Shown one piece after another: positions 14,781 through 31,955 of a stretch of 64,000 nucleotides of DNA; positions within the stretch are counted from its first letter, which is position 1, and each line of letters starts with the position of its first letter. Position numbers and translations under genes: made by a program. Origin of the DNA: Kineosporiaceae bacterium SCSIO 59966 (lineage in GTDB: Bacteria; Actinomycetota; Actinomycetes; Actinomycetales; SCSIO-59966); the NCBI GenBank assembly GCA_020881835.1, contig CP052876.1:1860001-1924000 (forward strand), in the 5' to 3' direction. The notes beneath the pieces were generated by a model. The model did not search any database. It saw nothing but the letters and a program-made list of their open reading frames with translations, and had not been told where the DNA came from.

Positions 14781-16198
14781 ACCGCACCTCGCGGCGCGAT
14801 GGCGAACAGCTGGGGCGGCAGCTGGATCCCCACGTCGGAGAGCCGCTCGACGAACCGCGGACGCAGCCCGGTGGCCCGCAGCGACCCGCGGAAGCGGCCG
14901 TGCTCGTCCATGCCGGCGTGGAAGTCGAAGCTGAAGAGGTCCTGCAGGGTGATGACCTCGCCCTCCATGCCGACGACCTCGGAGATCTGCACGACCCGGC
15001 GGGTGCCGTCCTTGAGTCGCTGCTGGTGCACGATGAGGTCGACCGCGCTGGCGACCTGCTCACGGATGGCACGCATCGGCAGGTCGACACCGGCCATCAG
15101 CACCATGGTCTCGAGCCGAGACAGGCTGTCCCGCGGGCTGTTCGAGTGCACCGTCGTGATGGAGCCGTCGTGACCGGTGTTCATCGCCTGGAGCATGTCG
15201 AGTGCGGCTCCGTCGCGGACCTCGCCGACGACGATGCGGTCCGGGCGCATCCGCAGCGCGTTGCGCACGAGGTCCCGGATGGCGACCTGACCGCGTCCTT
15301 CGATGTTCGCGGGCCGGGCCTCCATGCGGAGCACGTGCTGCTGCTGGAGCTGGAGCTCGGCGGCGTCCTCGATGGTGACGATCCGTTCGTCGTCCGGGAT
15401 GAACGAGCTCATCACGTTGAGCGTCGTCGTCTTCCCGGACCCTGTCCCGCCGGAGATGATGATGTTCAGGCGGCCTCTGACGCACGCCTCGAGCAGGTCG
15501 CGCACCACCCGGCTGATGGTCCCGAAGGTCACGAGGTCGTCGGCGGTGAACGGGTCCGCGGCGAACTTGCGGATGGTCAGCAGGCTGCCGTCCAGGGCGA
15601 TCGGGGGGATGACGGCGTTGACCCGCGATCCGTCGGGCAGCCGCGCGTCGACCATCGGGCTCGCCTCGTCCACGCGGCGCCCGACCCGGCCCACGATCTT
15701 GTCGATCGTGCGGCGCAGGTGGGCGTCGCTGGTGAACCGGCCGCCGGTCTCGTAGATCTTCCCTGCTCGCTCGACGTAGATCTGGTCGGGGCCGTTCACC
15801 ATGATCTCGGTGACGTCCGCGTCGCGCAGGAACGGTTCCAGCGGGCCGTGCCCGAGGATCTCGTCGGCCACCTCCTGGGCGATGCGGGTGCGGTCCGTCG
15901 CCGACAGCGGCGTCTCCTCGAGCTCCAGCACGGCCTGAAGGGTCTGGCGGACCTGCTGCTCCAGCTCCGCCTGCTCCATCCGCGGGTCGTACAGCCGCGG
16001 GCCCAGGCTGTCCAGCAGGGCCTGGTGGACGCTCGCCTTGACGGTGACGAACGGGTCGGCCGGGCGGCCGACGGTCGGCAGCGACCGTCTCGGCCTGGCG
16101 GCCGCGTCGCCGGTGGCGGCCCCGTCGTCCGCGCTGTGCTGCGGCTGGCCCGGCGCGGCCGAGGATCGAGCGGCGTTGATGCGGTCGGCGAGGCTCAT
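14777..16198 (-). CDS. cpaF: CpaF/TadA secretion ATPase
   Basis: 473 residues. It is the hexameric GspE-family motor for Flp pilus assembly. Marks are GPLEPFLRDADVTEIMVNGP (118-137), Walker A GGTGSGKT at 250-257, the Asp box IVTIEDAAELQL, Walker B RMRPDRIVVGEVRDGAALDM and the His box TGHDGSITTVHSNS. The ATG at 16196-16198 lies 2 nt after the cpaE stop. An Arg/Ala-rich extension upstream in frame is not used because it overlaps cpaE. Confidence 0.95.
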   Translation of the reverse strand: MSLADRINAARSSAAPGQPQHSADDGAATGDAAARPRRSLPTVGRPADPFVTVKASVHQALLDSLGPRLYDPRMEQAELEQQVRQTLQAVLELEETPLSATDRTRIAQEVADEILGHGPLEPFLRDADVTEIMVNGPDQIYVERAGKIYETGGRFTSDAHLRRTIDKIVGRVGRRVDEASPMVDARLPDGSRVNAVIPPIALDGSLLTIRKFAADPFTADDLVTFGTISRVVRDLLEACVRGRLNIIISGGTGSGKTTTLNVMSSFIPDDERIVTIEDAAELQLQQQHVLRMEARPANIEGRGQVAIRDLVRNALRMRPDRIVVGEVRDGAALDMLQAMNTGHDGSITTVHSNSPRDSLSRLETMVLMAGVDLPMRAIREQVASAVDLIVHQQRLKDGTRRVVQISEVVGMEGEVITLQDLFSFDFHAGMDEHGRFRGSLRATGLRPRFVERLSDVGIQLPPQLFAIAPRGAV

Positions 16199-16200
16199 CG

Positions 16201-17397
16201 TCAGTCCCTTCCCCGTCGCAGCAGTGACAGCCTGCGTCCGGTCCGCTCGCTGCGACGCGCGGGCGGGGCAGCAGCGGCGGAGTCGTCCCCGCGGAGCCGC
16301 TGGTCGGCGAGGTTGCGGATCGCGACGCTCACCGGGTGCTGCGGGTCGTCGAGGACGAGCGGCACCCCCTTGTTGATGGAGGCGGAGACGGCCCTGCTGC
16401 TGGGCACCTGAGCCGCGATCGGGCACTTGAGGGTCTGCTCGACGTCCGCGATGGACAGTCCCACCTTGGAGTCCGACCGGTTGAGCACCACCTGCCAGCT
16501 CTCCCTCGGGTAGCCCAGGAGGTCGAGCATGTCGAGCGTCAGCCGCAGGTTCTTCAGCGCCGGGATGTCGAGCGTCGCCAGGAGGACGTAGGCGTCGGCG
16601 CCGTCGAAGGCCGCCAGGACGTGCTCGGTGAACGCCGGCGGGGTGTCGATGACGATGTGGTCGTACATGCCGCGCAGCACCGCCAGCAGCTCGGCCACGA
16701 CCGGCACCGGGATCCGGTCGGCCTCGCCCGGTTCCAGCGGCGCGCAGATGGTGTCCAGACCTGCCGAGTGGGGGGTGATGAGGTTCTTCACCCCCTGCTC
16801 GTCGAGCTTGCCCTCCATCGCGATGGCGTCGACGATCGTGCGCGCCGGCAGCAGCTGCAGCGCGATGGCGACGTCACCGAAGGCCAGGTCGAGGTCGAGG
16901 AGGCACACGCGCTCACGTCCCCCGGCGGCGAGGGCCACGGCGAGGTTCGTCGCCAGCGTGGTCTTGCCGCAGCCGCCCTTCGCCGAGAACACGACCGCCA
17001 CCCGGCCACGGCCCGTGGACGGCTCGTGCCCCTGGAGGCCGAGCATCCGGCGACTGACGTCGAGGCTGCGCCGGCACGCCTCGGCGAGCGCCGCCAGATC
17101 CTCGGGGTTGACCACCTCCCGGACGCCGGCACGCAGGCTCTGGGCCAGCACCGTCACCTCGAGACGGTGCCGGAGCAGGATGACGCCGAGCTCGGGACGC
17201 TCGAGCCGGTGGGTCTCCGCGATCTCCAGGGCCGCGGCGAGGTCGACGTCGGGCCCGACGACGAGGAGGAGCTCGGAGCGGTGCTCGGCCAGCGCCCGGC
17301 GCGTGGCGGGTACCGAGTCGAGAACCGTGACGTCCGTGCCGAGCGCGAAGTGGTAGCTCTCCGCCGCGGCCGAATCAGGTTCGAGCAGGAGGGTCAC
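16201..17397 (-). CDS. cpaE: CpaE/TadZ-like MinD/ParA ATPase
   Basis: 398 residues. A receiver-like N-terminal domain (to ~120; ELGVILLRHRLEVTVLAQSL, GVREVVNPEDLAALAEACRR) precedes a deviant Walker A FSAKGGCGKTTLATN at 138-151, then LLDLDLAFGDVAIALQL and HIVIDTPPAFTEHVLAAFDG. TadZ/CpaE proteins position the Flp pilus machine at the cell pole. The GTG start overlaps the cpaB stop (GTGA). Confidence 0.92.
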   Translation of the reverse strand: MTLLLEPDSAAAESYHFALGTDVTVLDSVPATRRALAEHRSELLLVVGPDVDLAAALEIAETHRLERPELGVILLRHRLEVTVLAQSLRAGVREVVNPEDLAALAEACRRSLDVSRRMLGLQGHEPSTGRGRVAVVFSAKGGCGKTTLATNLAVALAAGGRERVCLLDLDLAFGDVAIALQLLPARTIVDAIAMEGKLDEQGVKNLITPHSAGLDTICAPLEPGEADRIPVPVVAELLAVLRGMYDHIVIDTPPAFTEHVLAAFDGADAYVLLATLDIPALKNLRLTLDMLDLLGYPRESWQVVLNRSDSKVGLSIADVEQTLKCPIAAQVPSSRAVSASINKGVPLVLDDPQHPVSVAIRNLADQRLRGDDSAAAAPPARRSERTGRRLSLLRRGRD

Positions 17398-18179
17398 GGC
17401 CCCTCCACCGCCGCGAAGAGCATGCCGTCGTCGATGGTGCCGGCCGGCACCTCGGTGCCGCTGCCGAGCAGGGCGGCGTAGAGCGTGCCGGTCTGGACGC
17501 CGTGCACGAGCCGCTGGCCGTCCTGCGGCGTCAGCGCCAACGTGACGAGGGCGGTCGGCACCTGCTCGGCCTGCTGCTGGTCGTCTCCGGTCGGCGTCTG
17601 CGCGGTGCCGAGCGTGGTGCTGCCTACGGCCAGGACCTCCACCTTCGGCAGGAGGACCCGCGTGACGTCCTCCTCGGCCGTCAGCTCCTGGCCCTCCTCG
17701 CCGTCGCCGGCTGCCTCAGGCTCGGCCTGGGTGGTGTGGTAAACGGCGATCTCGGACCCTGGCCGCAGGAACGGACCGACACGTCCGGGGTCGGACAGCT
17801 GCACCGTCACGGCGACCATCCCCTCCGGGACGACGAGCGCCGTCTGCCCGGAGGTCTGGGTGCCGAACCGACGCGCCAGGACGATCTCGCCCGGGGCGAT
17901 CGAGGACATCGCGACCTGGCTGCCCATGTCGTCGGTCACCTCGGTGAGCGCGCCGTCAGGGACGCCCTTCGCGGCAACGAGACTGGTCTGCAGCAGGCCA
18001 CGTTCGACGGCGTCGGCCGCCGTCGTGCCCGCTGGCACCTCGCGGGTGCTGACGTACACCTCGACGGTCTCCTGACCGGCCACCGCACGCTGATCGGCCG
18101 AGCGCGCGTACGCCAAGACGCCGACAGCGCCCACAGCCGCCAGCGCGACGGCGACGACGATGACCAACATTCGCTTCAT
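17394..18179 (-). CDS. cpaB: Flp pilus assembly protein CpaB (RcpC-like)
   Basis: 261 residues. An N-terminal signal anchor (KRMLVIVVAVALAAVGAVGV) is followed by a SAF domain (VYVSTREVPAGTTAADAVER, IAPGEIVLARRFG) and the CpaB beta domain (VPEGMVAVTVQLSDPGRVGP, FLRPGSEIAVYHT). CpaB binds near the outer part of the pilus conduit; in actinobacteria it presumably acts at the cell wall. The ATG overlaps the stop of the small Flp-like gene (ATGA). Confidence 0.88.
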   Translation of the reverse strand: MKRMLVIVVAVALAAVGAVGVLAYARSADQRAVAGQETVEVYVSTREVPAGTTAADAVERGLLQTSLVAAKGVPDGALTEVTDDMGSQVAMSSIAPGEIVLARRFGTQTSGQTALVVPEGMVAVTVQLSDPGRVGPFLRPGSEIAVYHTTQAEPEAAGDGEEGQELTAEEDVTRVLLPKVEVLAVGSTTLGTAQTPTGDDQQQAEQVPTALVTLALTPQDGQRLVHGVQTGTLYAALLGSGTEVPAGTIDDGMLFAAVEGP

Positions 18180-18367
18180 GTTTCGTCTCTCCAGACGAGG
18201 TGGCCGCCAGTGAAGGCGGCGTTAGGGACAAGCGCGTCGAGCAGATCAGGGATGGTGAACAGAGCAACCGTTGCTCCGCCGAAGGCGGCGACCGCGACAA
18301 CGATGACTGCCGCGATGAAGCCAGCCAGAATCCCGTACTCGGCCGTGACGACACCGTTCTCGTTCAT
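18176..18367 (-). CDS. Second Flp-type pilin-like protein
   Basis: 63 residues: MNENGVVTAEYGILAGF with a class III cleavage pattern (G|VVTAEY, Glu at +5, Tyr at +6), a hydrophobic helix, and a C-terminal tail longer than that of the main pilin (LLDALVPNAAFTGG). The ATG at 18365-18367 is chosen because AAGGAG lies 6 nt upstream on the minus strand. It is the first gene after the hairpin that separates it from flp, and it is coupled to cpaB. It may be a minor pilin or pseudopilin. Confidence 0.8.
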   Translation of the reverse strand: MNENGVVTAEYGILAGFIAAVIVVAVAAFGGATVALFTIPDLLDALVPNAAFTGGHLVWRDET

Positions 18368-18385
18368 CACATGCTCCTTGACCAA

Positions 18386-18424
18386 GCGGGGGGGTGCGGC
18401 TGCGTAGCAGCCTCTCCCCCCCGC
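18386..18424 (-). terminator. Strong nested hairpin between the two flp genes
   Basis: A perfect 9-bp G/C outer stem (18386-18394 with 18416-18424, GCGGGGGGG against its complement) encloses a perfect 6-bp inner stem (GGCTGC 18398-18403 with GCAGCC 18407-18412) and a 3-nt loop. No U-tract follows. In the leftward Tad operon it sits just after flp. It could terminate most transcripts or protect the flp mRNA 3' end, giving more pilin than machinery. Confidence 0.65.
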
Positions 18425-18436
18425 GACGACCCTTGG

Positions 18437-18628
18437 TCAGCTGGCGGTAACGCCGAGCTTCACGGCGACGGAGTTGAACAGCGCCTGAAGGTTCGTGCCG
18501 AGCAGCGTGACACCGGCGATGATCGCCACGGCGATGAGGGCCACCATGAGGCCGTACTCGACGGCGGTCGCGCCCTCGTCCTTGGTGCGAGCGGCGCGGT
18601 TCTGCAGGTACACGTAAGCCTTGACCAT
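18437..18628 (-). CDS. flp: Flp major pilin
   Basis: 63 residues: VKAYVYLQNRAARTKDEG, then the class III prepilin motif G|ATAVEYGLMVALIAVAIIAG (cleavage after Gly, Glu +5, Tyr +6) and a short C-terminus ending LGVTAS. The ATG at 18626-18628 has AAGGAG 6 nt upstream, a better Shine-Dalgarno than most genes here, which fits high expression. It is the first gene of the leftward Tad operon. Confidence 0.9.
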   Translation of the reverse strand: MVKAYVYLQNRAARTKDEGATAVEYGLMVALIAVAIIAGVTLLGTNLQALFNSVAVKLGVTAS

Positions 18629-19288: not shown

Positions 19289-22200
19289 GTGGATCAAGCG
19301 TGGCTGGAGTATCAGCGGTGGACGGAGGCCATCGCAGAAGTGGTCTACCCGTCCCGGGAAGATGCCGTACCGGTCTACCTGGACCTCGAGGACGAGGTCC
19401 TAGACCGCCTCGCTTCGGCGGCGGGCCACGAGGGATCGGCGAGGGACGGCCTGCGGGACGCGGTGACTGCGGTGACCGTGTCCCGCGGCATCTTTTCTCT
19501 GGGTCGGCTGTCCGCGGAGGCGCGGGCGTGGCGCCAGTCGCGTGACCGGCGGCATCCGCCTCCCTGGCTGGCGTTCCTGGCGATCACGGTGCTGGCCGCG
19601 GAGGCCATGGGGGCGGCCGATGACGGCTTCAATCAGAACAACTACTACGCCCGCCTCTGCTCCTTACTACAAGTTCCGGTGGACTCCCCGGAGGTCCGCT
19701 CGCAGTACATGGAGCGTGCCGAGCAGATGTGGGGCGACCTCAACCGCTGGCTGGAGGGCCTCGAAGGACGACGCGGTACGCCAACGGCGTATGCGCTCTC
19801 GTTCCGCTACGTGGGTCTGCCGATGTCACAGGCTCTCGTCCGCGCAGGAGATCGGCGCAAGTTCCCGCTGTTCTTTGCTCAGTACGGTCTCCCAGCCGGC
19901 ACCGAGTTTTCGCCCGAGGCGCTCGAGCGGTATCTGGACGCCTGGTTCGCGAGCGAGTCCTGCCCCTTCTCGCCCTCCCTTAAGAAGCTCTGGGAGAAGG
20001 ACTCCGCACGCGAGCGCATCGCCGCGGTCGCTGCTGTCGAACTCGTGGGCTGGGATGGAACGGTCCCGTCGAACCAGGTCGTTGGGTCACCGACCCTCCA
20101 GCGGGTCGGCCTCATGGCCCAACTCCGCCGCGGCTTCATGGGTGAGAGCCTCGACCTCGCGCTCACCCTACGGGCTGGGGCTGAGGACGAATTCGGAGCC
20201 GGCATGCGGGTGGAGGCGGCTGCCGGACAGTGGATGCCGGTCGGCTTGGTCCCCGCCGTCGCGAACGTCTGGCGCACGAGTTACTCCAGCGACATCGACG
20301 TGAAGTCAGTGCTCGAGGGGGTAGTCAGGATGAAGCCTGCTGTCGGCGACGACCGGGTGCTCACGCATCACCCGCGCAGCATCGTGCCGCTGGTCTTCGA
20401 CGAACTGCAAGCCGCGTATCTGGAGGCCGAACGGCTTCAGCTCAACGTCGACAGCCTCCTCCTCGTGCGTACCGAGACCAAGGGCCGCCCGTTGGCCTCT
20501 AACGTCGTCAAGGTTCTGGAGGGCTGCGCGCGCCCGGGCTTCACGATTCACCAGTCGATGGACAGACTACCCGCGGGGTGGACCCTGGTCGCCGGCGTCC
20601 AGCTGTTCGGATCGCCCGGACCGGGCACGTACAACGAGCTGGTGCCCCTGGCTCGAGACCAGCTGACCATCGCCGGGGGCATGCGGATCCCGTCGCGGAT
20701 CCGGAAGTGGTCCGTCGTGTCGCCGCCCGAGGTGCGCGCCTCCGTGGAGTCCGCCGCGGATCTCAGGCTCGTGCTCACCGACGGGGAAGATCTCAAGAAG
20801 GAGCTCCGGTCCTGGACCGCGCGCGGCGGCGCTCTCGTGGTGCCGCTCGCCGAGGCCGAACTCTCGGTGGGCGACTACAGCCTCGCCCTCTACGCGGGTA
20901 ACGCCAAGGCACCGCTGCAGCGCGCGACCGTGCGCCTCAGGTCGGCGGACGTGGTGGACGCGGCGTGGGACTTGTCGCCGCGCCTCGTGTACGAGCTATC
21001 TGAGCCGGGTGGCCCCTTCGGTGTCCTCTCGGCACGCGAGATCGACGGAGATGTCTCGAAGGTCTTCGTCGACGGGGCCCTCACCGTCGGCGTGAGGCCC
21101 CGGGAGCCGGGCGTCACCCTTCGGGCGCCGACGAGGGCCGGATGGTCGCCTCCGCACGCGACTCCACCTCCCCCCGTCGTGAAGATCGGGGCTCCGGAGG
21201 CCGGCTCCTGCGTCGTCACGGGCGCGCACCACCTGGAGTACCCCACGTTCATGGGCGGCTGGCAGCCGAAGTACATCGAGGGTGTGTGCCGATACTGCGG
21301 CCTGGTCAAACGGTCTCCGGGATGGATCCCGCGCAACGGCTTCAGGAAGTCGTCTGCCGGTGGCGTTCACGTCGACGTGGCCGACCTTCCGCCGGTCGAC
21401 GGTCAGACATCGAGGCTGTGGGACGCCGCTCTCGACACGCTGATGCACCTGGGGGGTGGGTCAGCGAGGGCCCTCACCACCGTTGCCTCGCAGATCGACG
21501 GGAGCGCGCTCTTCACCAGCGCCTTTCCCACACGCCTGGAGCTCCTCGGGCACATCGCCGTCGAGCGGTCGGACGACGGCACGCCTGAGCGGTGGGAGAT
21601 CTCGCCCTCGTGCCTGGTGGTCCGAGGACCCGACTCGCTCGAGCTGGTGGGCTTCTGGCCCGACGACCTTGTGGCGACGCTCCTCGATCGGTTCGCGGAT
21701 TCAGACGTCCGGCTGCAGGAGCAGCCCGCCGAGGACCAGCCGACCCGTCGCTTGCTGGAGGGTGCGCACGTGGAGCTCGTGGAGGAGGATGCCGAACCCC
21801 TCGGTTTGGTCGTGCGCGACCCGTGCACGCAGATCCTCGGGGCGCTGCCGGTGCTCTCCGAGGTCGCTGTGACCCACCCACGCGTGCCCATGCCAGGGTT
21901 CAGTCAGGCAGAGAGGTTCGACGTGGCCTCCGCGTCGTGGGTCCAGACCAGTGACGTCTCCCGTCCAGGGGCGTACCGCCTCGCTCGAGGGTTCGAGCGT
22001 TTGCATGTCTACCGCTCGGAGAGCGACGTGGTACGGCGATCCGCCGTCCTGGGATCCGTCCACCTCGTGAAGTACCTGGCAGCGAACGCCCTCGGTCATT
22101 CGTTGGTGACCTTCCTCCCCAGACGCCAGGGCGTAGTCGTGCCGCTCGGCTGCGACCTGCCGGGCCTGTACGCGCGCGCGGCCGTGCTGGCGAGCGGGGA

Positions 22201-22309
22201 GCTGCCCCAACGAAAGCGCCTCACCGGCGAGCACGAGCGCCCGTGCCTCCTCTACCCGTCGATCACCCAGGAGCAGGCCGACCTGCTCGTGACCCTGCTC
22301 TCTCGATAG
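19289..22309 (+). CDS. DruH-like protein of a Druantia type III-like system
   Basis: 1006 residues with no ATPase or nuclease motif that I recognise. The N-terminal ~300 residues are helical (FNQNNYYARLCSLLQVPVDS, PTAYALSFRYVGLPMSQALV). The middle looks beta-rich, with a possible metal site at C641, C667 and C670 (GVCRYCGLVKRSPGW). The C-terminal ~250 residues are mixed. Size, order and tight coupling to a large DUF1998 helicase match the DruH-DruE layout of Druantia type III phage defence, and that context is the main basis for the name. The GTG start is the only one after an in-frame stop at 19274, with GGGGG about 6 nt upstream. The downstream helicase starts 9 nt after its stop. Confidence 0.6.
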   Translation: MDQAWLEYQRWTEAIAEVVYPSREDAVPVYLDLEDEVLDRLASAAGHEGSARDGLRDAVTAVTVSRGIFSLGRLSAEARAWRQSRDRRHPPPWLAFLAITVLAAEAMGAADDGFNQNNYYARLCSLLQVPVDSPEVRSQYMERAEQMWGDLNRWLEGLEGRRGTPTAYALSFRYVGLPMSQALVRAGDRRKFPLFFAQYGLPAGTEFSPEALERYLDAWFASESCPFSPSLKKLWEKDSARERIAAVAAVELVGWDGTVPSNQVVGSPTLQRVGLMAQLRRGFMGESLDLALTLRAGAEDEFGAGMRVEAAAGQWMPVGLVPAVANVWRTSYSSDIDVKSVLEGVVRMKPAVGDDRVLTHHPRSIVPLVFDELQAAYLEAERLQLNVDSLLLVRTETKGRPLASNVVKVLEGCARPGFTIHQSMDRLPAGWTLVAGVQLFGSPGPGTYNELVPLARDQLTIAGGMRIPSRIRKWSVVSPPEVRASVESAADLRLVLTDGEDLKKELRSWTARGGALVVPLAEAELSVGDYSLALYAGNAKAPLQRATVRLRSADVVDAAWDLSPRLVYELSEPGGPFGVLSAREIDGDVSKVFVDGALTVGVRPREPGVTLRAPTRAGWSPPHATPPPPVVKIGAPEAGSCVVTGAHHLEYPTFMGGWQPKYIEGVCRYCGLVKRSPGWIPRNGFRKSSAGGVHVDVADLPPVDGQTSRLWDAALDTLMHLGGGSARALTTVASQIDGSALFTSAFPTRLELLGHIAVERSDDGTPERWEISPSCLVVRGPDSLELVGFWPDDLVATLLDRFADSDVRLQEQPAEDQPTRRLLEGAHVELVEEDAEPLGLVVRDPCTQILGALPVLSEVAVTHPRVPMPGFSQAERFDVASASWVQTSDVSRPGAYRLARGFERLHVYRSESDVVRRSAVLGSVHLVKYLAANALGHSLVTFLPRRQGVVVPLGCDLPGLYARAAVLASGELPQRKRLTGEHERPCLLYPSITQEQADLLVTLLSR

Positions 22310-22318
22310 GTGGCAGCC

Positions 22319-25300
22319 ATGGATCCGACAAACCCGAAGCGCCTCGCCGACGACCTGCGGGACGCGTACATGAGGTACTTCGACACCGCCTTCTGGCTCG
22401 CGGACGAGTCATTGATGCGCGAGCGACGTGCGTTGCTGGAGCAGCCGGGCGCGCTTGTGGGCGGAGTCCTCCTCGAGCCGGTCGTGCCCTATCCGAACGT
22501 CGTGCCGATGCTCGACGTCGCCGACGACGTGGGTCTGAGTCGCGAGACCGCCCGGCGGGTGGCCCGTGCCGTCTTTCCCGGCACAGACCCCGCCGACCTC
22601 CGACTGCGCCAGCACCAGGCCGAGGCGATCCGCAAGGCGCTCCACCCCGATGCCGGCCAGAACGTCGTCGTGACCTCGGGGACAGGATCCGGCAAGACGG
22701 AGTCGTTCCTCCTCCCGGTGCTGCTGCGCCTTGTCGAGGAGTCACGGGCATGGGGCCGCCAGCACGGCGGCAACTGGTGGTGGTCAGCGGCTGACCCTCA
22801 GTGGGTCCCGGTCCGGCACGCTGAGGCGCGGGCGGCGGCGATGAGGACGATCGTCCTCTACCCGACCAACGCGCTCGTCGAGGACCAGATGACGCGCCTG
22901 CGCCGTGCAGTTCGGGTGCTCCGCGAGCAGTCGCCGGAGACCCCGATCTGGTTCGGTCGCTACACCGGGATCACGGAGGGGTCCGGGCCGAACCCGTCGA
23001 GCAAGGCAGCGGCACAGGCTGTCGCGGCCAGCCTCCGACAACTCGAGGCCGAGCACGAGGCGCTTCTCCGCGCCAACGAGGAGGCGGTGCGCGAAGGTCG
23101 GCCGGCAGACCAGATCGACCTGAGCCAGTTCCAGGACCCGCGATCCGGCGAGATGCTCACCCGCTGGGACATGATCGCCAGCCCGCCGGATGTCTTGATC
23201 ACGAACTACTCCATGCTCAACACAATCATGATGCGCGCTTTCGAGGCGCCGATGTTCGACAAGACCGCTGCGTGGCTCCGTTCAGACCCGGCAAACGTGC
23301 TGACGCTGGTGGTCGACGAGCTGCACCTCTACCGCGGGACGCAGGGCAGCGAGGTCGCGATGGTCGTCAGGGCGCTCCTCCGACGTCTCGGCTTGGAACC
23401 AACCTCGTCGCAACTCCGCATCATTGGCACGTCGGCCTCCCTCGACGCCTCGCAAGCGGGGTTGGCGTACCTCGAGCAGTTCTTCGGCGTGCCGGCCGAG
23501 TCTTTCCACCTCGAGCCGGGCGAGCAGGCGACGCTCGACCGGCCGCCCGCCCTGACGCGGGCGGAGGTCGCGGAGTGGTCGCGTCCGGTCAACGAGGTCT
23601 CCCGGCTGCTGGCGACCGCCTGTGCGGACGCCGAGACGGGCCGCCTCCGAGCGACTGATCTGGACACGATCGCCAGGCGGTTGTTCCCGCACGACGAAGA
23701 TCGCAACGAACTCCTGGCACACGTCCTCGAATGGCTCGCGTCGCACCAGCCGGGAAGCGCCGATGCAAGCGGCCTGTTCGTGCCCCTGCGAGCCCATGTG
23801 TTCGTAAGGACGCCACGAGGCGTCTGGGCGTGCTCGAACGCGCACTGCTCGGGTGTCGAGGCACGGTCTGAGGGGCGAGCAGTCGGCAAACTTTACATCA
23901 GCCCGCTGAACACGTGCACTCACTGCGGAAGCCGCGTCCTGGAGCTGCTCTACTGCTACGAGTGCGGCGACGCCTCGCTAGGCGGGTTCGTGCTCGATGA
24001 GAAGGGGAACCAGACCCTGCTTGGGCCGGGACCAGTGACTGAGGGCCAGAGCGGCAAGCCGGTCTTCCTGCGGGTCAGGGACCAGTTCACCTGGTACCGG
24101 CCCGGGCTGCTCCCGCTGGGCAAGGACTGGACTGCCCACGGCCTCAAGTTCGCGTTCCAGGCTGTCGCCTGGAACCCGGCGCTCGGGTGCGTAGAGGCGC
24201 CCGCAAGCGCGCCGACAGGCGTTGGGGTCACCGTCGCCAACGCCGCACAGACGGATCGGGTCCCCGCCTTGCCGACGCGCTGCCCGTCCTGCGGCTTCGA
24301 CGCGAAGCAGCACGACGGCTCGGCCTTCAAGTCGGGGCGGGTCCGATCACCCATCCGCGCCCACACGTCCGGGCTCGCGGCGGCTACGGAGCTGTACCTC
24401 TCGCAACTCATCCGTTCGCTGGCAGAGGGACGCGACGGGCTCGAAGCCATCACCGACGCCAAGACCATCGTCTTCACGGACAGCCGAGACGACGCTGCTC
24501 GCACCGCGGCTGGCGTGAGCCGAAACCACCACCGCGACCTCGTACGCCAGGTACTCCGCCAGGAGATCACGCGTGCTCCCGACCCGCAGGCGATCCTCGA
24601 CGCCATGACAGACGCCGCGGCGATGGCTCAGGACTTCGGCCCCGCTCGGGTCGCCCGCCTCATGCAGAAGATGGGGCAGGCCCTCGGGCCGGACCAGCAG
24701 GCGGCGTTGGACGCGGCCTACGTTACGCTCGGCGACAGTTCTCAAGTACCTATCGGCGAAGTCTTCGCGCGCGTCACGCGTTCGCTAGTCGCCCTCGGCG
24801 CGAACCCTGGAGGCACCAGCCCTTGGAACCGTCATCTTGAGGACGGCCCGCAGGCGACGACCCCCTGGTACCGCGCCTTTCCACCCCCCTTCCCCGGCGC
24901 CTGGCCCGTACCGCCCGTGGCTCAGGGCCAAGAGAAGCTGCAGCGCCAGCTTCGCGCTTCGGTCGTCGAGGCCACGTTCGACCGAGCGCGCCGTGACCTG
25001 GAGTCCGTGGGCATCGCCCGGCTGGGGATCGCCAGTTTGCAGCCCCTGGACGGACCGCTCGACGATGATCAGCAGCACGAAGTGATGGCCTCCGTCATCC
25101 GCATCCTCGGGACGCTCAAACGGTACGAGGAGAGCACTGCGGGCGGCATCCAGCCGGAGGCCGTCATGCCTCCGGCGGTGCGGCGCTACCTGGAGGCTGT
25201 CGCCAGACATCTCGGATTGCCGGCCCACGACGTAGTCGACCAGGTCGAGCGTCTCGCTGGGAGTCCGTCCACGCTGGAAGCGGTCTCTGGGTGGCTGCTT

Positions 25301-27607
25301 AAGACCGCCACCGTCACGAGTACGCTCGTCCTCGTCCCTGGCGGACAGGAGCAGTGGCGTTGCACGGCGTGCAACTACGTCCACCTGCACGCCAGTGCCG
25401 GCGTGTGTGCGAACCGACAGTGCCACCGGCCGGACCTGGTGAAGGAGGACCGGGACGAGGAGTTCAGCGACTACTACGCCTGGCTAGCTCACCGGCCACC
25501 TCGGCGGCTGGCCGTCGCGGAGTTGACCGGTCAGACCAAGCCAGTGTCTGAGCAGCGAAGCAGGCAGCGGCGGTTCAAGGGCGCCTTCACGCTCGCGGAG
25601 CACCGCCTACCCGACGAGCTCGACGTCCTTTCAGTTACGACGACGATGGAGGTCGGCGTCGACATCGGCTCGCTCCGAGCCACGATGATGGCCAACATGC
25701 CGCCTCAGCGGTTCAACTACCAGCAGAGGGTCGGCCGAGCTGGTCGCGGCGGGCAGGCGTTCAGCTACGCCCTGACGCTGTGCCGCGACCGGAGCCACGA
25801 CGAGTACTACTTCCAGCGTGCCGACCGCATCACGGGCGACGTACCGCCTCAGCCCTTCCTCGACCTGGCTCGCCGCCGAATCGTCCAGCGGGTCGTCGCG
25901 GCCGAGTGTCTTCGGGAGGCCTTCTCGGCGATACCCAACGGCCCAAGATGGAAGTCGACGAGCAACCACGGGACCTTCGGCCAGATGGACGAGTGGGACC
26001 GGTACCGGCCGCCCGTCGCAGCGTGGCTCGCCACCGACGCGCTGGTGAGGCCCATCGCGACACGGCTCTGTGCGCTCACGCCGCTGTCTGCCAACGATGT
26101 CGAAGAGATCATCACGTGGGTGCGGGCTGACCTGGTCGCTGGGGTGGACCAGGTCGTCGAGCGGGAGAGGGGCACCGCGGACACCGAGCTCAGCGCTGCC
26201 CTCGCTCGCTACGGGCTGCTGCCCATGTTCGGGTTTCCCACGCGTGTGAGGAATCTCTGGGACGCGCCCATCAAGAGCGCCGAGTGGCTCGAGACACACG
26301 CGGTCGCCGACAGGTCGCTGGACATGGCGGTCGCCTCCTTCTCGCCGGGCGCTGAGGTGGTCAAGGACGGTCTCGTCCACACCGTGGCGGGCTTTGCCAG
26401 CTACCGGCCAGCCGGGAGGTGGGTCGAGTCGCTCGAGCCGCTGGGTTCACCCAGGACTCTCGGTCGCTGCGAGCGATGCGGGCGGAGCGATCTGGAACCG
26501 GTGGGCGACTTCTGCCGCGCCTGCAACGAGCCGGTGACAAGGCTCGCCATCTACGAGCCTCACGGCTTCAGGACGACCTACAGGGCCCGACCGTACAACG
26601 ACGACAGCGACATGCCGTTCGGCGCGGGAGCACCGGAGCTCTCACCCGAGGGCACGTCGGCCGAGTTGCACGAACTGCGTACGGTGGACATCCAGCTCTT
26701 CGAGCAGACACGCCTTGTGACCGTCAACGACAACTTCGGGCGCGGTTTCACGTTTACGAAGGACACGGACGGTACCGTGCTCGCCGAGCCGGGTCAGCCT
26801 GGAGCCGGGACGATCAACGCGATCGGCGAGATTCGCGTCACCGACGCGCTCCTTATGACTCCGAAGCGCCTAGAGCTCCCAACCGGTGCAGTCGGTCTCC
26901 GCGAGCAGCCGTCTGGCCGCGCTGCATACACCTCGCTCGCCGAGTTGCTCCGGCGAGGCGCAAAGGATGTGCTGGACGTTGATCCGAGTGAACTGACGGT
27001 CGGGTTGACTCCAGTCCGGGTCCCGCTCACGGCTGTCGACGAACCGGACGCGAAGTCACAGGTGGCAGCGGCGATCTACATCGCAGACACCGCCGAGAAC
27101 GGCGCCGGTTACGCGGCCGAACTCGGCAAGCCGGAGGTGTTCGAGCCGCTCCTCCAGGAGACGCTCACGGACGCGGTCGAGCGGTGGCAGGCCGCCTCTC
27201 ACGGACAGTTGTGCGACCTGTCGTGCCCCGATTGCTTACGTTCGTACGACAACTCGCGCCGACACGCGTACCTCGACTGGCGGCTCGCACTGGACCTGCT
27301 GGAACTGGTCGCCGGAGTGCCGTTGACCACCGACCGGTCGCTGCCTGCAGAGGTGAGCGGCTTCGCGCCCGCCGCACACGCCCTCGGTGGCGCGTCCGCG
27401 ACCGTGATCGACGGTATACCGGCGATCACCCGAAACGACGCGTGCGTGCTCCTCGCGCACCCTCTCTGGCGGCTCGAGCTCGACTGGTTCACCGACGAGC
27501 AGGCGCAAGCGCACGTGGCCGCGACCTCCTCTTTCAGGCGCGTTGTGTGGCACGACGTCCGGAGCTTCCGCCGCAACCCGCTGGCCATCTGGCCCGCACT
27601 CGCATAG
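22319..27607 (+). CDS. DruE-like DEAD/DEAH-box helicase with DUF1998
   Basis: 1762 residues. The N-terminus has the conserved [20 protein letters not shown] block. Walker A is [11 protein letters not shown] at 119-129, motif II is DELH at 333-336 ([16 protein letters not shown]), motif III is IGTSAS, and motif VI is QRVGRAGR at 1136-1143. Zinc-ribbon-like pairs occur in [38 protein letters not shown] and [20 protein letters not shown]. The DUF1998 C-terminus has the cluster C1632[13 protein letters not shown]. This architecture and length match DruE, the helicase common to all Druantia types. The ATG at 22319 is preferred over a GTG at 22310 because AGGTGG sits 5 nt upstream. Confidence 0.8.
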
Positions 27608-28716
27608 TGGTCGGCGCAGCCCCCCGCCCCCGGCCTCAGCCCCCTGAGCGAGTATCACCAACCCTCGTCGGGGTGTTCCAGCGCTGCCCGCTGCGCGCCG
27701 GGTTCGCGAGCGACCCCCGATACCAAGGGCTGAGGCGTACGGGCCTGCGAGCCGCCCTGGGCTCCGCAGCGCACGCCGTTGCTGCTCGGTCCGGGACCGG
27801 CGCGGTGTTCGAGGTCGCGTGGGCCGAGGAAACGGCGAGAGCGATGGCCAGGCTCCGCGCTCACTGGGTGCCAGCGACCCCGCCCTCCGTGAGTAGCTGG
27901 CCCGGTTCAGCGATCACGAAGGCGAGGCTCCGCACAACCTGGGAACCTGGACCCACCTGGCCCGTCGCGAACGGTCCGCGTGTCGCGTCGACGACGGCCG
28001 CTGGTCACAAGGGCTTCGCCGGCGGGCACCCTCCTCTGCCATGGCGAGAACGGTGGCTCGGCCCACCAGGCACCGGTCTGGTGGGCCGACCGGACCTCGT
28101 CGAGCGGGTTGACGGGGTCCTGCGCATAGTCGACCTGAAGACGGGTGTCGAGCAGGCGTCGATGACTGAGCCGCAGCGGCTGCAGCTCCTCTTCTACTGC
28201 GCACTCGTGCGCCACGTGCTCGGGGAGTTGCCGACGAGCGCGGCGGTGCAGAGAGCGGACGGGCGTCTGGAGGAGTTCGCCGTCAACCCTTCCGAGGTCA
28301 CCCGAGTGGAACTCCTGGCTCTCGAGGTCCGGCAGGCTCTCGACGCCGCGGCGAAAGGGGCGGCGCTGGAGGCCCGCCCATCGGACGTGGTCTGCTCCTC
28401 GTGCCCGTTCCGCGTAGTGTGCTCGGCCTTCCTCGAGGCGTACCAGCCGGAGTGGCGCTCGAGCCCTGTGCGATTGGCGCGGATCGGGGCAGTCGTGCCC
28501 GCCGATGCACATCTCGTCGTGGACGTCGAGGTTGTGGCACCCTCATGGGCGGCGGGGCCCATGCGCTGGGTGGCTTTCCCAATGCCGCAGGACCTTTCTC
28601 CAGGCAGCCTCTGGGCGGCAAGCGACTTCGAGGGACGGACTGGCACTGCAACTGCGAGATGGAACACGCTTGTCGCGCCCTGGGACGGACTGCCAACCTC
28701 TGTCGTTGATCCCTGA
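27607..28716 (+). CDS. Cas4/AddB-like iron-sulfur PD-(D/E)XK nuclease
   Basis: 369 residues. It starts with a GTG that shares its first base with the helicase stop (TAGTG). Nuclease motifs are H56, GRPD at 160-163, DLKTG with D176 and K178, and Q193 in QLLFYC. Four cysteines, C27 (FQRCPLR), C263, C266 and C272 (CSSCPFRVVC), form the C-xn-C-x2-C-x5-C pattern that holds a 4Fe-4S cluster in Cas4 and AddB nucleases. It is predicted to be a DNA exo/endonuclease working with the helicase. Canonical Druantia III is described as DruH plus DruE, so this gene appears to be an extra component. Confidence 0.8.
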   Translation: MVGAAPRPRPQPPERVSPTLVGVFQRCPLRAGFASDPRYQGLRRTGLRAALGSAAHAVAARSGTGAVFEVAWAEETARAMARLRAHWVPATPPSVSSWPGSAITKARLRTTWEPGPTWPVANGPRVASTTAAGHKGFAGGHPPLPWRERWLGPPGTGLVGRPDLVERVDGVLRIVDLKTGVEQASMTEPQRLQLLFYCALVRHVLGELPTSAAVQRADGRLEEFAVNPSEVTRVELLALEVRQALDAAAKGAALEARPSDVVCSSCPFRVVCSAFLEAYQPEWRSSPVRLARIGAVVPADAHLVVDVEVVAPSWAAGPMRWVAFPMPQDLSPGSLWAASDFEGRTGTATARWNTLVAPWDGLPTSVVDP

Positions 28717-29002: not shown

Positions 29003-29149
29003 TCATGTCGCGCTGCCCGGGTACGCACGCCAGGGTATCGATGAGCTGCCCTCGAGCACCGATCGGACCGGACGCGACGACGCCGGCTCCCTGGACTCGC
29101 CAGGCGAACGTGGTGGCTGACATGGATGCGCGTGGGTACGCGCCTGCCC

Positions 29150-29155
29150 TATCGT
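29150..29155 (+). promoter_or_regulatory. -10 box for the HNH gene (leaderless)
   Basis: TATCGT, then 6 nt, then the GTG at 29162; same layout as other leaderless starts in the window. Confidence 0.4.
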
Positions 29156-29161
29156 CGAGGT

Positions 29162-29944
29162 GTGGCGAAGGAGTACGGAGTCGAGTACCCCGAGCGCCCA
29201 CTCATGTCCGTGATCTCCGACCTGCTAGGGATCCCACACTTTACAACAAGCCGTGGCTCGACGGTCCGCTCTGACTTTCTACGCGCTGTGGCTGAGACCC
29301 TTGGGATCCCCGCGGCCCGATCTGAGGCCCTGCGCAAGGACGAACTGCTCGCCGCCGTCGTCGAGGCGGCGACCAGAGAGCCGATGGATCCCACGCTATA
29401 TTCTCCGGGTGGGACGGTGACGGACCGGGCACTCCAAAGGATCATCGATGGCCTGATACTTCACGGAACGCCCGGGCGGCTGCCGGCCATCGTTCCACCG
29501 GAGGATGAGCCTGTGATTCCTGAACTCGACGACTTCGATCCGGGCGGCCTGCAGGACGAACGCGATCGACGGCTTGTCGAGACAGCGGTCCGCGAAGGTC
29601 AGGACCGATTCCGCTCCGCGTTGATGGCGGCCTACGGCTCGGCCTGCGCGATCACGGAGTACACAGCGGTGGAGACGCTCCAGGCGGCGCACATCTTTCC
29701 GTATCGGGGTCCTGCGACCAACAGCGTCAGCAACGGGCTTCTGCTGAGGGCGGACGTCCACTTGCTATTCGACCGTGGAGCGATTGCCGTACACGAGGCC
29801 TCGATGGAGGTGCTGATCAAGCCGCACCTCGAGGTCACGCAGTACGTCTCCCTAGCCGGTAAGAAGCTCCGCCGACCGCAGCGACTGCGTGATCGGCCCT
29901 CCACTGCGGCCCTGCGAAGCCATCGCGAGTGGGCGGGCCTCTAG
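29162..29944 (+). CDS. HNH endonuclease
   Basis: 260 residues. The C-terminal HNH fold reads YGSACAITEYTAVETLQAAH, with His177 in AAHIFPY, Asn191 in SNGLLLRADVH and His200/Asp204 in HLLFD. This is the form common in restriction-type HNH enzymes. The N-terminal ~75 residues (DLLGIPHFTTSRG to KDELLAAVVEAAT) look like a separate helical, possibly DNA-binding, module. It is convergent with the cytosine methyltransferase and overlaps it by 93 nt. It is the likely restriction partner of that enzyme, by position. GTG at 29162 is preferred because of the -10 box upstream. Confidence 0.8.
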   Translation: MAKEYGVEYPERPLMSVISDLLGIPHFTTSRGSTVRSDFLRAVAETLGIPAARSEALRKDELLAAVVEAATREPMDPTLYSPGGTVTDRALQRIIDGLILHGTPGRLPAIVPPEDEPVIPELDDFDPGGLQDERDRRLVETAVREGQDRFRSALMAAYGSACAITEYTAVETLQAAHIFPYRGPATNSVSNGLLLRADVHLLFDRGAIAVHEASMEVLIKPHLEVTQYVSLAGKKLRRPQRLRDRPSTAALRSHREWAGL

Positions 29945-31249
29945 TCGGTTGTCCGGGTTGGGATCAGCCCGCATCACAGCCTCGACCAGTCCAGGAGCGA
30001 GTAGCGCGATGTCCTCCCGGTCCCGTAGCACATGTGTTCGGAAGATGTAGTAGGCAGCGCCGACGTTGACGCCGTTGCCCATCTGACGGTAGCTGGCCGC
30101 ATCCGGCTGGTCGCCGAAATGGAACCAGTCCGGCAGGCCCTGGAGCCGTGCAGCTTCCCGGGGCGTGATCCGGCGCCTGCGGTTGCCGACGATGCTCGTC
30201 TGCGTGATCGCGACAAGTGCCGGCAAGTACGTGGGCCGCTTCGCGCGGATGCCAGATGGCCGCAGGTGCATCACCGTGTCCCACAACGACGCGGCGCCCT
30301 GTGCCTGCCACTCCAGCTTGCGTCGCGAGGCGGGTAGGTCTTCGAGGTCGTTATGACGCGCCTTCCACTGGTCGATCACGCTGCGGTGCGTCCTGTAGAA
30401 GTCGCTGTTCTTTCGCAGGAAGTCGGCCTTCCACGCTGGAGTGTCTGGAGAGATTTCCGGTTCGAGCTTGAACTCGTCGGCCCAGATGGGGAAGCCAGGA
30501 ATTTTTGAGCCGACAAGTCTAGGGCGTAGGTCGGCAAGTAAGTCTTCCCACACGGAGATCCACATGATCTCCGACGGGGTCAGCTTGTATCGCTCCAGAT
30601 CATCGATATCCGCATCGGAGTCGAGTGGCAGGTCCCGTTCGACGTCCCACTCTTGGGGATCCCACCCGGCGACCGGGCGGTTTTGAACGAGAGGTTCGTC
30701 AGCGGACTCCGCCCACGCCCGTGCACGACCGACGTACGTGCCCGTGATGAAGACCCTTTCCCTCACCTGCGGCCGCCCGCCGAGAGTCGGCGGGAGCAGG
30801 TGCGGAGAGAAGACTGTCGGGGTCCCCGCCACTCGGTACCCCAGGTCGCGGAGCGACGTCACAATAGTCTTCCACGTCTCCTTGTGGCGGGGACCAGCCA
30901 GATTGCGGACGTTCTCCAGCATGATCACGGGAGGCTTTCGCTCTTCCAGCACTCGGCAGATGTTCCAGAACAACGTCCCTCGCGTCTCCTCCATGCCGCG
31001 CTGGAAACCTGACTTCGAGAATGGCTGGCACGGGAAACCTGCAGCGAGCACGTCGTGGGGAGGTACGGCCATCTGGTCCTCCGTCAGTTCCACGATGTCA
31101 CCGGCTACCTGAGTCCTCCAGTTGACTTCGTAGACAGCCTTGGCCTGCAAGTCGATCTCCGACGCGAACCAGCACTCGCCGTCGAGCGCACCAAGCGCCG
31201 CGTGAAAGCCACCCACCCCAGCGAAGAGGTCCACGAACGAGAACGACAT
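29852..31249 (-). CDS. DNA (cytosine-5) methyltransferase
   Basis: 465 residues. Motif I FVDLFAGVGGFHAALGAL is at 5-22. Catalytic motif IV GFPCQPFS has Cys74. Motif VI is ENV at 112-114, motif VIII is PQVRERVFITG, and motifs IX/X are ITPREAARLQGLPDWF and YRQMGNGVNV. The target-recognition region (about 190-380) is longer than average and carries LTPSEIMWISVWEDLLADLR. The recognition site cannot be read. The ATG at 31247-31249 starts directly before motif I. The neighbours are the HNH gene (convergent, overlapping) and Vsr (divergent), a typical restriction-modification-repair set. Confidence 0.95.
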   Translation of the reverse strand: MSFSFVDLFAGVGGFHAALGALDGECWFASEIDLQAKAVYEVNWRTQVAGDIVELTEDQMAVPPHDVLAAGFPCQPFSKSGFQRGMEETRGTLFWNICRVLEERKPPVIMLENVRNLAGPRHKETWKTIVTSLRDLGYRVAGTPTVFSPHLLPPTLGGRPQVRERVFITGTYVGRARAWAESADEPLVQNRPVAGWDPQEWDVERDLPLDSDADIDDLERYKLTPSEIMWISVWEDLLADLRPRLVGSKIPGFPIWADEFKLEPEISPDTPAWKADFLRKNSDFYRTHRSVIDQWKARHNDLEDLPASRRKLEWQAQGAASLWDTVMHLRPSGIRAKRPTYLPALVAITQTSIVGNRRRRITPREAARLQGLPDWFHFGDQPDAASYRQMGNGVNVGAAYYIFRTHVLRDREDIALLAPGLVEAVMRADPNPDNRLEARPLAMASQGRSGGPITQSLRSAELLTG

Positions 31250-31514: not shown

Positions 31515-31955
31515 GTGCCGACGTACCACGTCCCCCCGCATCCGGGGGCAGGTGGAGCGGAGGTCTCTCGGCGCATGAGCACGCTCAGGCGCAAGGACAA
31601 CGGCTCCGAGCTTGCCGTTCGACGCCTGCTGCACGGCGCGGGCTACCGGTTCCGGGTTCACTACCCGGTTCCGGGCCTTCCCAGACGCACGATCGACATC
31701 GCCTTCACGCGGGCCAAGGTCGCCGTCTTTGTCGACGGCTGCTTCTGGCATGGGTGCCCTGAGCACGGGACGAGGCCGAGATCCAACGCAGAGTGGTGGT
31801 CGTCGAAGCTGGACGCGAACATGGCCCGAGACAGAGACACCGACGACGCGTTGGAGAAGCTCGGCTGGACGGTGCTCCGACTGTGGGAGCACGAGGAGCC
31901 CGCACGAGCCGCGGAGCGTGTCATGGCCGCTCTAGCGCCTACTGGTCGGTCATGA
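31515..31955 (+). CDS. vsr: Very short patch repair (Vsr) endonuclease
   Basis: 146 residues. Conserved Vsr blocks are MSTLRRKDNGSELAVRRLLH, YPVPGLPRRTIDIAFTRAKV with catalytic Asp61, VFVDGCFWHGCPEH with His79 and the zinc-binding Cys/His set, RSNAEWWSSKLDANMARDRD, and GWTVLRLWEHEEP. Vsr nicks beside T:G mismatches that arise from deamination of 5-methylcytosine, so its presence fits the adjacent C5 methyltransferase. The GTG start has GGGAGG 8 nt upstream. The 265 nt between the methyltransferase and vsr starts must hold both promoters, but I see no clear boxes. Confidence 0.93.
   Translation: MPTYHVPPHPGAGGAEVSRRMSTLRRKDNGSELAVRRLLHGAGYRFRVHYPVPGLPRRTIDIAFTRAKVAVFVDGCFWHGCPEHGTRPRSNAEWWSSKLDANMARDRDTDDALEKLGWTVLRLWEHEEPARAAERVMAALAPTGRS

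Follow-up and report, generated by a model that had tools for sequence, protein, structure and literature searches.

We analysed a 64,000-nucleotide (nt) stretch (the window, to which all positions refer unless another locus is named) of the complete 3.1-Mb genome of the actinobacterium Kineosporiaceae bacterium SCSIO 59966, and found in it an island of six genes around a Druantia operon, in which the helicase gene druE is directly followed by druK, encoding a predicted iron-sulfur (Fe-S) nuclease that may supply the DNA cut of the system. The island proteins were searched with PADLOC, Pfam and NCBIfam profiles, and the genes assigned were:

19289-22309, + strand: druF with a fused druL-like C-terminal third, 1006 amino acids (aa), GTG start (PADLOC DruF2, DruL4)
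22310-27607, + strand: druE, a YprA-family superfamily 2 (SF2) helicase with an MZB/DUF1998 zinc domain and a short C-terminal remnant (PADLOC, Pfam)
27607-28716, + strand: druK, a predicted Fe-S PD-(D/E)XK nuclease with a C-terminal oligonucleotide-binding (OB) fold, 369 aa (PADLOC, Pfam PDDEXK_1)
29852-31249, - strand: druM-like C5 cytosine methyltransferase, about 465 aa from ATG 31249 (PADLOC DruM2, Pfam PF00145)
31575-31955, + strand: vsr mismatch endonuclease, companion of the C5 methyltransferase, 126 aa from ATG 31575 (NCBIfam TIGR00632)
29126-29944, + strand: HNH endonuclease gene, 272 aa (Pfam HNH_2)

An earlier note on this DNA, covering 19289-28716, had described the first three open reading frames and their junctions, and both are present: DruE measures 1765 aa if started at GTG 22310 and 1762 aa if started at ATG 22319, the latter giving the 9-nt junction, and the druK GTG start shares 1 nt with the TAG stop of druE. 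The DELH helicase with a DUF1998 cysteine cluster was likewise recovered (DELH at DruE residues 336-339; C1635, C1639 and C1642; Pfam MZB, 6.7e-7). That span omits the druM-type C5 methyltransferase and vsr, genes that accompany such operons; the druM-like frame is open as far as 31600. Pfam and NCBIfam concurred at domain level (PDDEXK_1, DEAD/Helicase_C/MZB, DNA_methylase and Vsr).

The DruF2, DruE2 and DruK matches of PADLOC bore out the proposal of a Druantia-family operon, which their profiles place in the type II/IV lineage. The 1006-aa protein matched DruF2 (PDLC00023) with 1401 bits over residues 2-1005, DruE scored 1809 bits on DruE2, 1343 on DruE4 and 398 on DruE3, and the methyltransferase 650 bits on DruM2 (PDLC00034), so that the type II markers DruE2, DruF2 and DruM2 are all present and, as best profiles, liken the operon to type II (DruM, DruF, DruG, DruE). 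The type IV (DruE, DruF, DruL) marker DruL is present as a fused C-terminal domain of DruF (about residues 752-976, DruL4 1e-07); a stand-alone DruL protein of another genome aligned to positions 744-1005 of the DruF2 model, and DruF in our survey was encoded either whole, at about 1000 aa, or split into two proteins of about 690 and 320 aa. In the PADLOC publication, DruL is the defining mark of type IV and DruM plus DruG that of type II, and type II was found in Proteobacteria only (PMC8565338). We therefore file the operon in the II/IV lineage, because DruM and a fused DruL are present while a DruG match is absent and neither definition fits exactly. Unlike type II, the window operon has DruK after DruE, an actinobacterial host and no DruG match among the six island proteins, which leave no space for another large open reading frame; the whole genome was not scanned with the DruG model, which was silent in all of about 300 genomes searched and in controls. 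Unlike type IV, DruL is fused to DruF and a DruM2-like methyltransferase is present, contrary to the type IV condition "no DruM or DruG". The window DruE falls in the clade with fused DruF, and DruK also occurs in the clade with split druF and druL (L064, L065, L141, L144); the PADLOC split of II versus IV does not track the nuclease.

DruK matched the PADLOC model PDLC00060 (421 bits over residues 16-359, 1.1e-126) and Pfam PDDEXK_1 (1.1e-23). It carries the nuclease motif GRPD (162-163), D176-L-K178 and Q193xxxY197, together with cysteines C27 and C263-x2-C266-x5-C272. When 25 DruK proteins were aligned, the others sharing 18-53% identity with the window protein, 13 positions were invariant (C27, G52, H56, E148, G160, D163, D176, K178, Q193, Y197, C263, C266 and C272); as judged from this alignment, they are the catalytic and Fe-S residues expected for the Cas4/AddB/Dna2 class, and the nuclease motif, which the earlier note had already read as PD-(D/E)XK with an Fe-S pattern, is far above chance. 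In the AlphaFold2 model (mean predicted local distance difference test score, pLDDT, 88.9), the fold of residues 13-280 matched ACE1 of the Cas4 family (Z 13.2; Foldseek E 2e-6), AdnA (13.1), Cas4-Cas1 (13.1), Dna2 (11.9) and AddB (11.8), a resemblance to Cas4/AddB that had been anticipated from the letters. An OB fold at the C-terminus (from about residue 270; 288-358) resembled telomere-end-binding proteins (Z about 8). DruK is thus predicted to be a Cas4/AddB/Dna2-type nuclease, in which the ligand cysteines suggest a 4Fe-4S cluster. It shares the Fe-S PD-(D/E)XK nuclease fold and the motif set with AddAB, AdnAB, Dna2, Cas4 and ACE1, but these are fused to SF1 helicases or work with Cas1 or Argonaute modules, whereas DruK stands alone, ends in an OB fold and lies behind an SF2 YprA-type helicase. 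Its identity as a stray CRISPR Cas4 was rejected, the only Cas1 found in the genome (G000:C1:2181276-2181956) lying about 290 kb from the island.

DruK was mentioned in no paper found by literature search, and the papers found likewise lacked its Fe-S ligands, its OB tail, the slot exchange described below and the missing nuclease site in the DruE tail. In PADLOC-DB (2023) it is represented by three models (PDLC00058-60), annotated just as "PD-(D/E)XK nuclease superfamily", of which PDLC00060 covers the window protein. The suggestion of an undescribed subtype therefore survived with respect to the papers and failed with respect to the database: DruK is already modelled, and what the operon adds is an effector candidate undescribed in the papers found.

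The window DruE, whose closest relatives are from Cellulomonas (73% identity), has the Pfam domains DEAD, Helicase_C and MZB. At 1765 aa it falls about 350 aa short of the 2114-aa type III DruE of Escherichia coli genome L149; it lacks the C-terminal PLD domains, and no nuclease residues are conserved in its tail of about 110 aa. Across 83 DruE proteins, the segment past the LDWRL motif measured 106-141 aa where room allowed judging, and its sole conserved, likely functional positions were H63-P64, D95 and P103 (tail numbering); an acid-acid-lysine nuclease set was not conserved in these tails, which are also too short for the PLD pair of type III. This pattern of conservation agrees with a dead nuclease remnant. 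According to a structural survey of YprA-family helicases, DruE of types I and II contains Vsr nuclease domains that have been inactivated (PMC12458937), and type III DruE is a helicase-nuclease that loads on 3' tails and has an active PLD domain (PMC13192584). Solved helicases with a sequence match to 22310-27607 were PDB 9wae (E 7e-145) and 9tu7 (5e-43), and of the two, 9wae may resemble the window DruE more closely than type III does and so be the better template.

Scanning about 85,000 species genomes with a DruE alignment yielded 78 loci; the window and 17 other regions brought the total to 96 (94 distinct), in a survey that favours DruE relatives close to the window. Among the 84 distinct loci with sequence beyond druE, 27 had druK directly 3' of druE, nine had an alternative protein of about 650 aa in this slot and 48 (about 57%) had neither; the third gene is a linked component, as had been supposed, and is far from absent at nearly all related loci. 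All 29 DruK profile matches in the 96 loci lay immediately 3' of druE and in its orientation, with none elsewhere in the surveyed stretches, and in a DruK scan of 396 genomes of the phylum the two best matches outside the window genome were both directly behind druE. DruK-bearing loci came from Actinomycetota, Bacillota, Chloroflexota and Kerfeldbacteria and occurred in both main DruE clades, with 12 state changes versus 23.6 when labels were shuffled. DruE and DruK distances correlated closely (r = 0.94, 25 pairs; none of 5000 permutations as high), which shows long co-inheritance and does not imply contact. No decayed druK was seen in the DruK-less loci, save L129, where a contig end severs the druK start, and a tblastn search for DruK on plasmids or phages was empty. 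At the Mycobacterium aquaticum locus (L078 15250-16013, +), druK is divided between two frames of 145 and 170 aa, which probably reflects a disrupted gene or a fault in the assembly. The idea that DruK is confined to loci with a dead DruE tail was not supported, the tails looking dead with and without DruK alike.

We consider it fairly probable that druF(L)-druE-druK with the linked druM and vsr form one system, in which DruE is a helicase with a decayed nuclease, DruK cuts in trans, DruF-L senses and DruM marks self. The proposal builds on what was observed here: the families to which the proteins belong, the order of the genes, the conserved residues and predicted folds, the repeated linkage across loci and a DruE tail in which nuclease residues are not conserved. 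DruF-L, rich in immunoglobulin (Ig)/FN3-like domains, would be a sensor of infection or a loader of DruE. DruE, taken as a 3'-to-5' helicase with the polarity and substrate of Druantia III (PMC13192584), would load on single-stranded DNA in replicating or recombining phage DNA and open the 3'-tailed phage DNA. Because its own C-terminal nuclease domain would have decayed, the cut would be supplied in trans by DruK, which, to judge from its fold and residues, would take the strand fed by DruE, grip it through the C-terminal OB fold and cleave it. By analogy with type II, DruM would methylate host cytosines as a self mark, and Vsr would repair the T:G mismatches arising from C5 methylation. That helicase and nuclease can reside in two different subunits is known from Hachiman (PMC12278908), where HamAB likewise draws an SF2 helicase and a PD-(D/E)XK nuclease from separate genes, although HamA is a DUF1837 protein and not of the Cas4/AddB class, and HamB is Ski2-like. 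The papers found give no mechanism for Druantia I, II and IV, whose DruE helicases appear to be without a working nuclease; a linked, fully conserved Fe-S nuclease is a specific candidate for the missing cut that can be mutated, and the set of 27 loci with invariant residues makes this candidate directly testable.

Several observations weigh against this proposal. As 48 loci have neither DruK nor the alternative protein directly downstream, the slot need not hold a nuclease and a different activity must be present at these loci; since the tails look dead irrespective of DruK, DruK leaves DNA cutting at these loci unexplained. Shared operon inheritance alone would yield a high DruE-DruK correlation without physical contact. 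When 395 genomes of the class were scanned without bias for DruF, 16 proved DruF-bearing, three of them with DruK (the window, L049 and L050). Finally, the methyltransferase could be part of a neighbouring restriction system, as a cytosine methyltransferase behind the Druantia genes of an Alisedimentitalea plasmid is followed by an MvaI/BcnI-type restriction endonuclease (L147 15514-18128, +).

This last point extends to the possibility, which we regard as rather unlikely, that the C5 methyltransferase, Vsr and HNH make up an independent type II restriction-modification system adjoining druF-E-K. The HNH and methyltransferase genes are convergent with overlapping 3' ends (29852-29944), the position and strand of the methyltransferase differ among loci, an MvaI/BcnI-type endonuclease accompanies the methyltransferase at L147, and the methyltransferase could pair with different endonucleases. 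However, HNH homologues were found in just four other surveyed loci, none of them DruK-bearing, versus a C5 methyltransferase near 22 of the 27 DruK loci and eight of the nine loci of the Proteobacterial variant, and DruM is among the components that define Druantia type II (PMC8565338). The window gene is the sole C5 methyltransferase found in its genome, and by rough arithmetic the class-wide density (about 80 matches in 118 genomes) would put one in about 0.3% of 25-kb stretches. Vsr (TIGR00632, 116 bits, cut-off 97.9) was present in 16 of the 27 DruK loci, and the HNH gene, which lies between druK and druM, is probably passenger cargo. Weak matches linked its product to Rho_N at the N-terminus and to phosphorothioate-DNA restriction enzymes.

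Alternatively, within a true Druantia system, DruK could be an accessory DNA-end processor like AddB, AdnA or Cas4, which would trim or resect DNA broken by DruF-L or by a methyltransferase-linked endonuclease and so tune defence without being its effector. Its nearest folds include those of the end-resecting AdnAB, AddAB, Dna2 and Cas4-Cas1, it is absent from more than half of the related loci, and type III DruH has a dimer-dependent nuclease activity without a recognisable motif (PMC13192584), which DruF-L might match. Yet Pfam, PADLOC and fold search recognised no nuclease motif in DruF-L, and the distance to the sole Cas1 makes spacer capture unlikely. We hold this role to be unlikely, and retain DruK as candidate effector.

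That DruK is a separate nuclease gene standing behind druE by chance, the three genes not being one system, is highly improbable: Fe-S PD-(D/E)XK nucleases are common and DruK is missing at many loci, but its confinement to the slot 3' of druE, its co-divergence with DruE, its occurrence in both DruE clades and the modelling of DruK as a Druantia gene by the PADLOC curators all argue otherwise.

To the type III-like system of the earlier note, DruH plus DruE with an added nuclease, we give practically no credence, its filing being refuted at sequence level by PADLOC profiles and profile-profile comparison. The window shares with type III (DruH-DruE) a protein of about 1000 aa ahead of a YprA-family DruE helicase, and Ig-like domains and a helical N-terminus are common to DruF and DruH (for DruH, PMC13192584). 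Against this, the PADLOC DruH profile had no match to the 1006-aa protein, while a genuine DruH, taken from beside the 2114-aa DruE of L149, scored 1829 bits on the same model; a DruF profile of 44 sequences aligned by hhalign to a single DruH or to six DruH sequences with a probability of 0.1-0.2% (0.1% against the six), so that the first protein is not DruH by these comparisons. DruE is shorter and scores far better on DruE2 than on DruE3, and the window operon has no DruH and no tandem PLD tail on DruE; it has a separate Fe-S nuclease and a DruM-type methyltransferase. The premise that Druantia III lacks an identified nuclease is itself outdated, given the active PLD domain of its DruE and the nuclease activity of DruH (PMC13192584, PMC12458937). 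The AlphaFold2 model of DruF (pLDDT 88.4) consisted of a helical N-terminal domain, FN3/Ig-like sandwiches at about 271-380 and 457-552 (FN3-like match Z 9.2 over 457-552) and the DruL part; a PDB fold search found no match at E <= 0.001 for the model, just FN3/Ig-like single domains, and no DruH row, the solved DruH (9tud) possibly being outside the fold library. An analogous sensor role of DruF and DruH is plausible, because DruF carries such sandwiches and DruH is reported to have Ig-like domains (PMC13192584).

The contents of the slot suggest a broader reading of Druantia II/IV as a platform, in which DruE has lost its own nuclease and the slot 3' of druE is exchangeable, holding DruK in Actinobacteria and several other phyla, in Proteobacteria a protein that combines PD-(D/E)XK with an SF1 helicase, and elsewhere perhaps unrelated proteins. 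We put this forward tentatively, as somewhat short of an even chance; if true, types II and IV would be one lineage varying in DruF-DruL fusion and effector. The Proteobacterial protein of about 650 aa has an SF1-like helicase part, with a weak PADLOC NERD+UvrD match, and an N-terminal D...EVK motif seen by eye, which may be of the PD-(D/E)XK type.

Proteins of this kind stood 3' of druE at L095, L102, L104-L107, L114, L118, L120 and L147, and the PADLOC DruG and DruK models were silent for those scanned. In Streptomyces druF-druL-druE loci (L123, L125, L126, L053), the next gene 3' of druE encodes an AAA ATPase related to PtuA/PDC-M01A. At L051 (12742-13410, +), the druK slot is taken by a 222-aa protein with a 4-nt overlap and a possible caspase-like (CHAT-type) motif by eye, for which Pfam and PADLOC were empty. 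A metagenome-assembled genome of Mycobacteriaceae (L072 19008-24152, +) has a second large YprA-type helicase (1714 aa) a few kb behind its Druantia operon, with another open reading frame right after it.

Comparison for an empty site gave no clean one: PlsC was present in six relatives of the order, with pilus genes absent within about 10 kb of it. On the left, the island is bordered by an apparent tad/flp pilus locus (window 12831-18600, - strand), recognised from reading alone, with genes for a secretion ATPase, for CpaE-like and RcpC-like proteins and for small pilin-like products.

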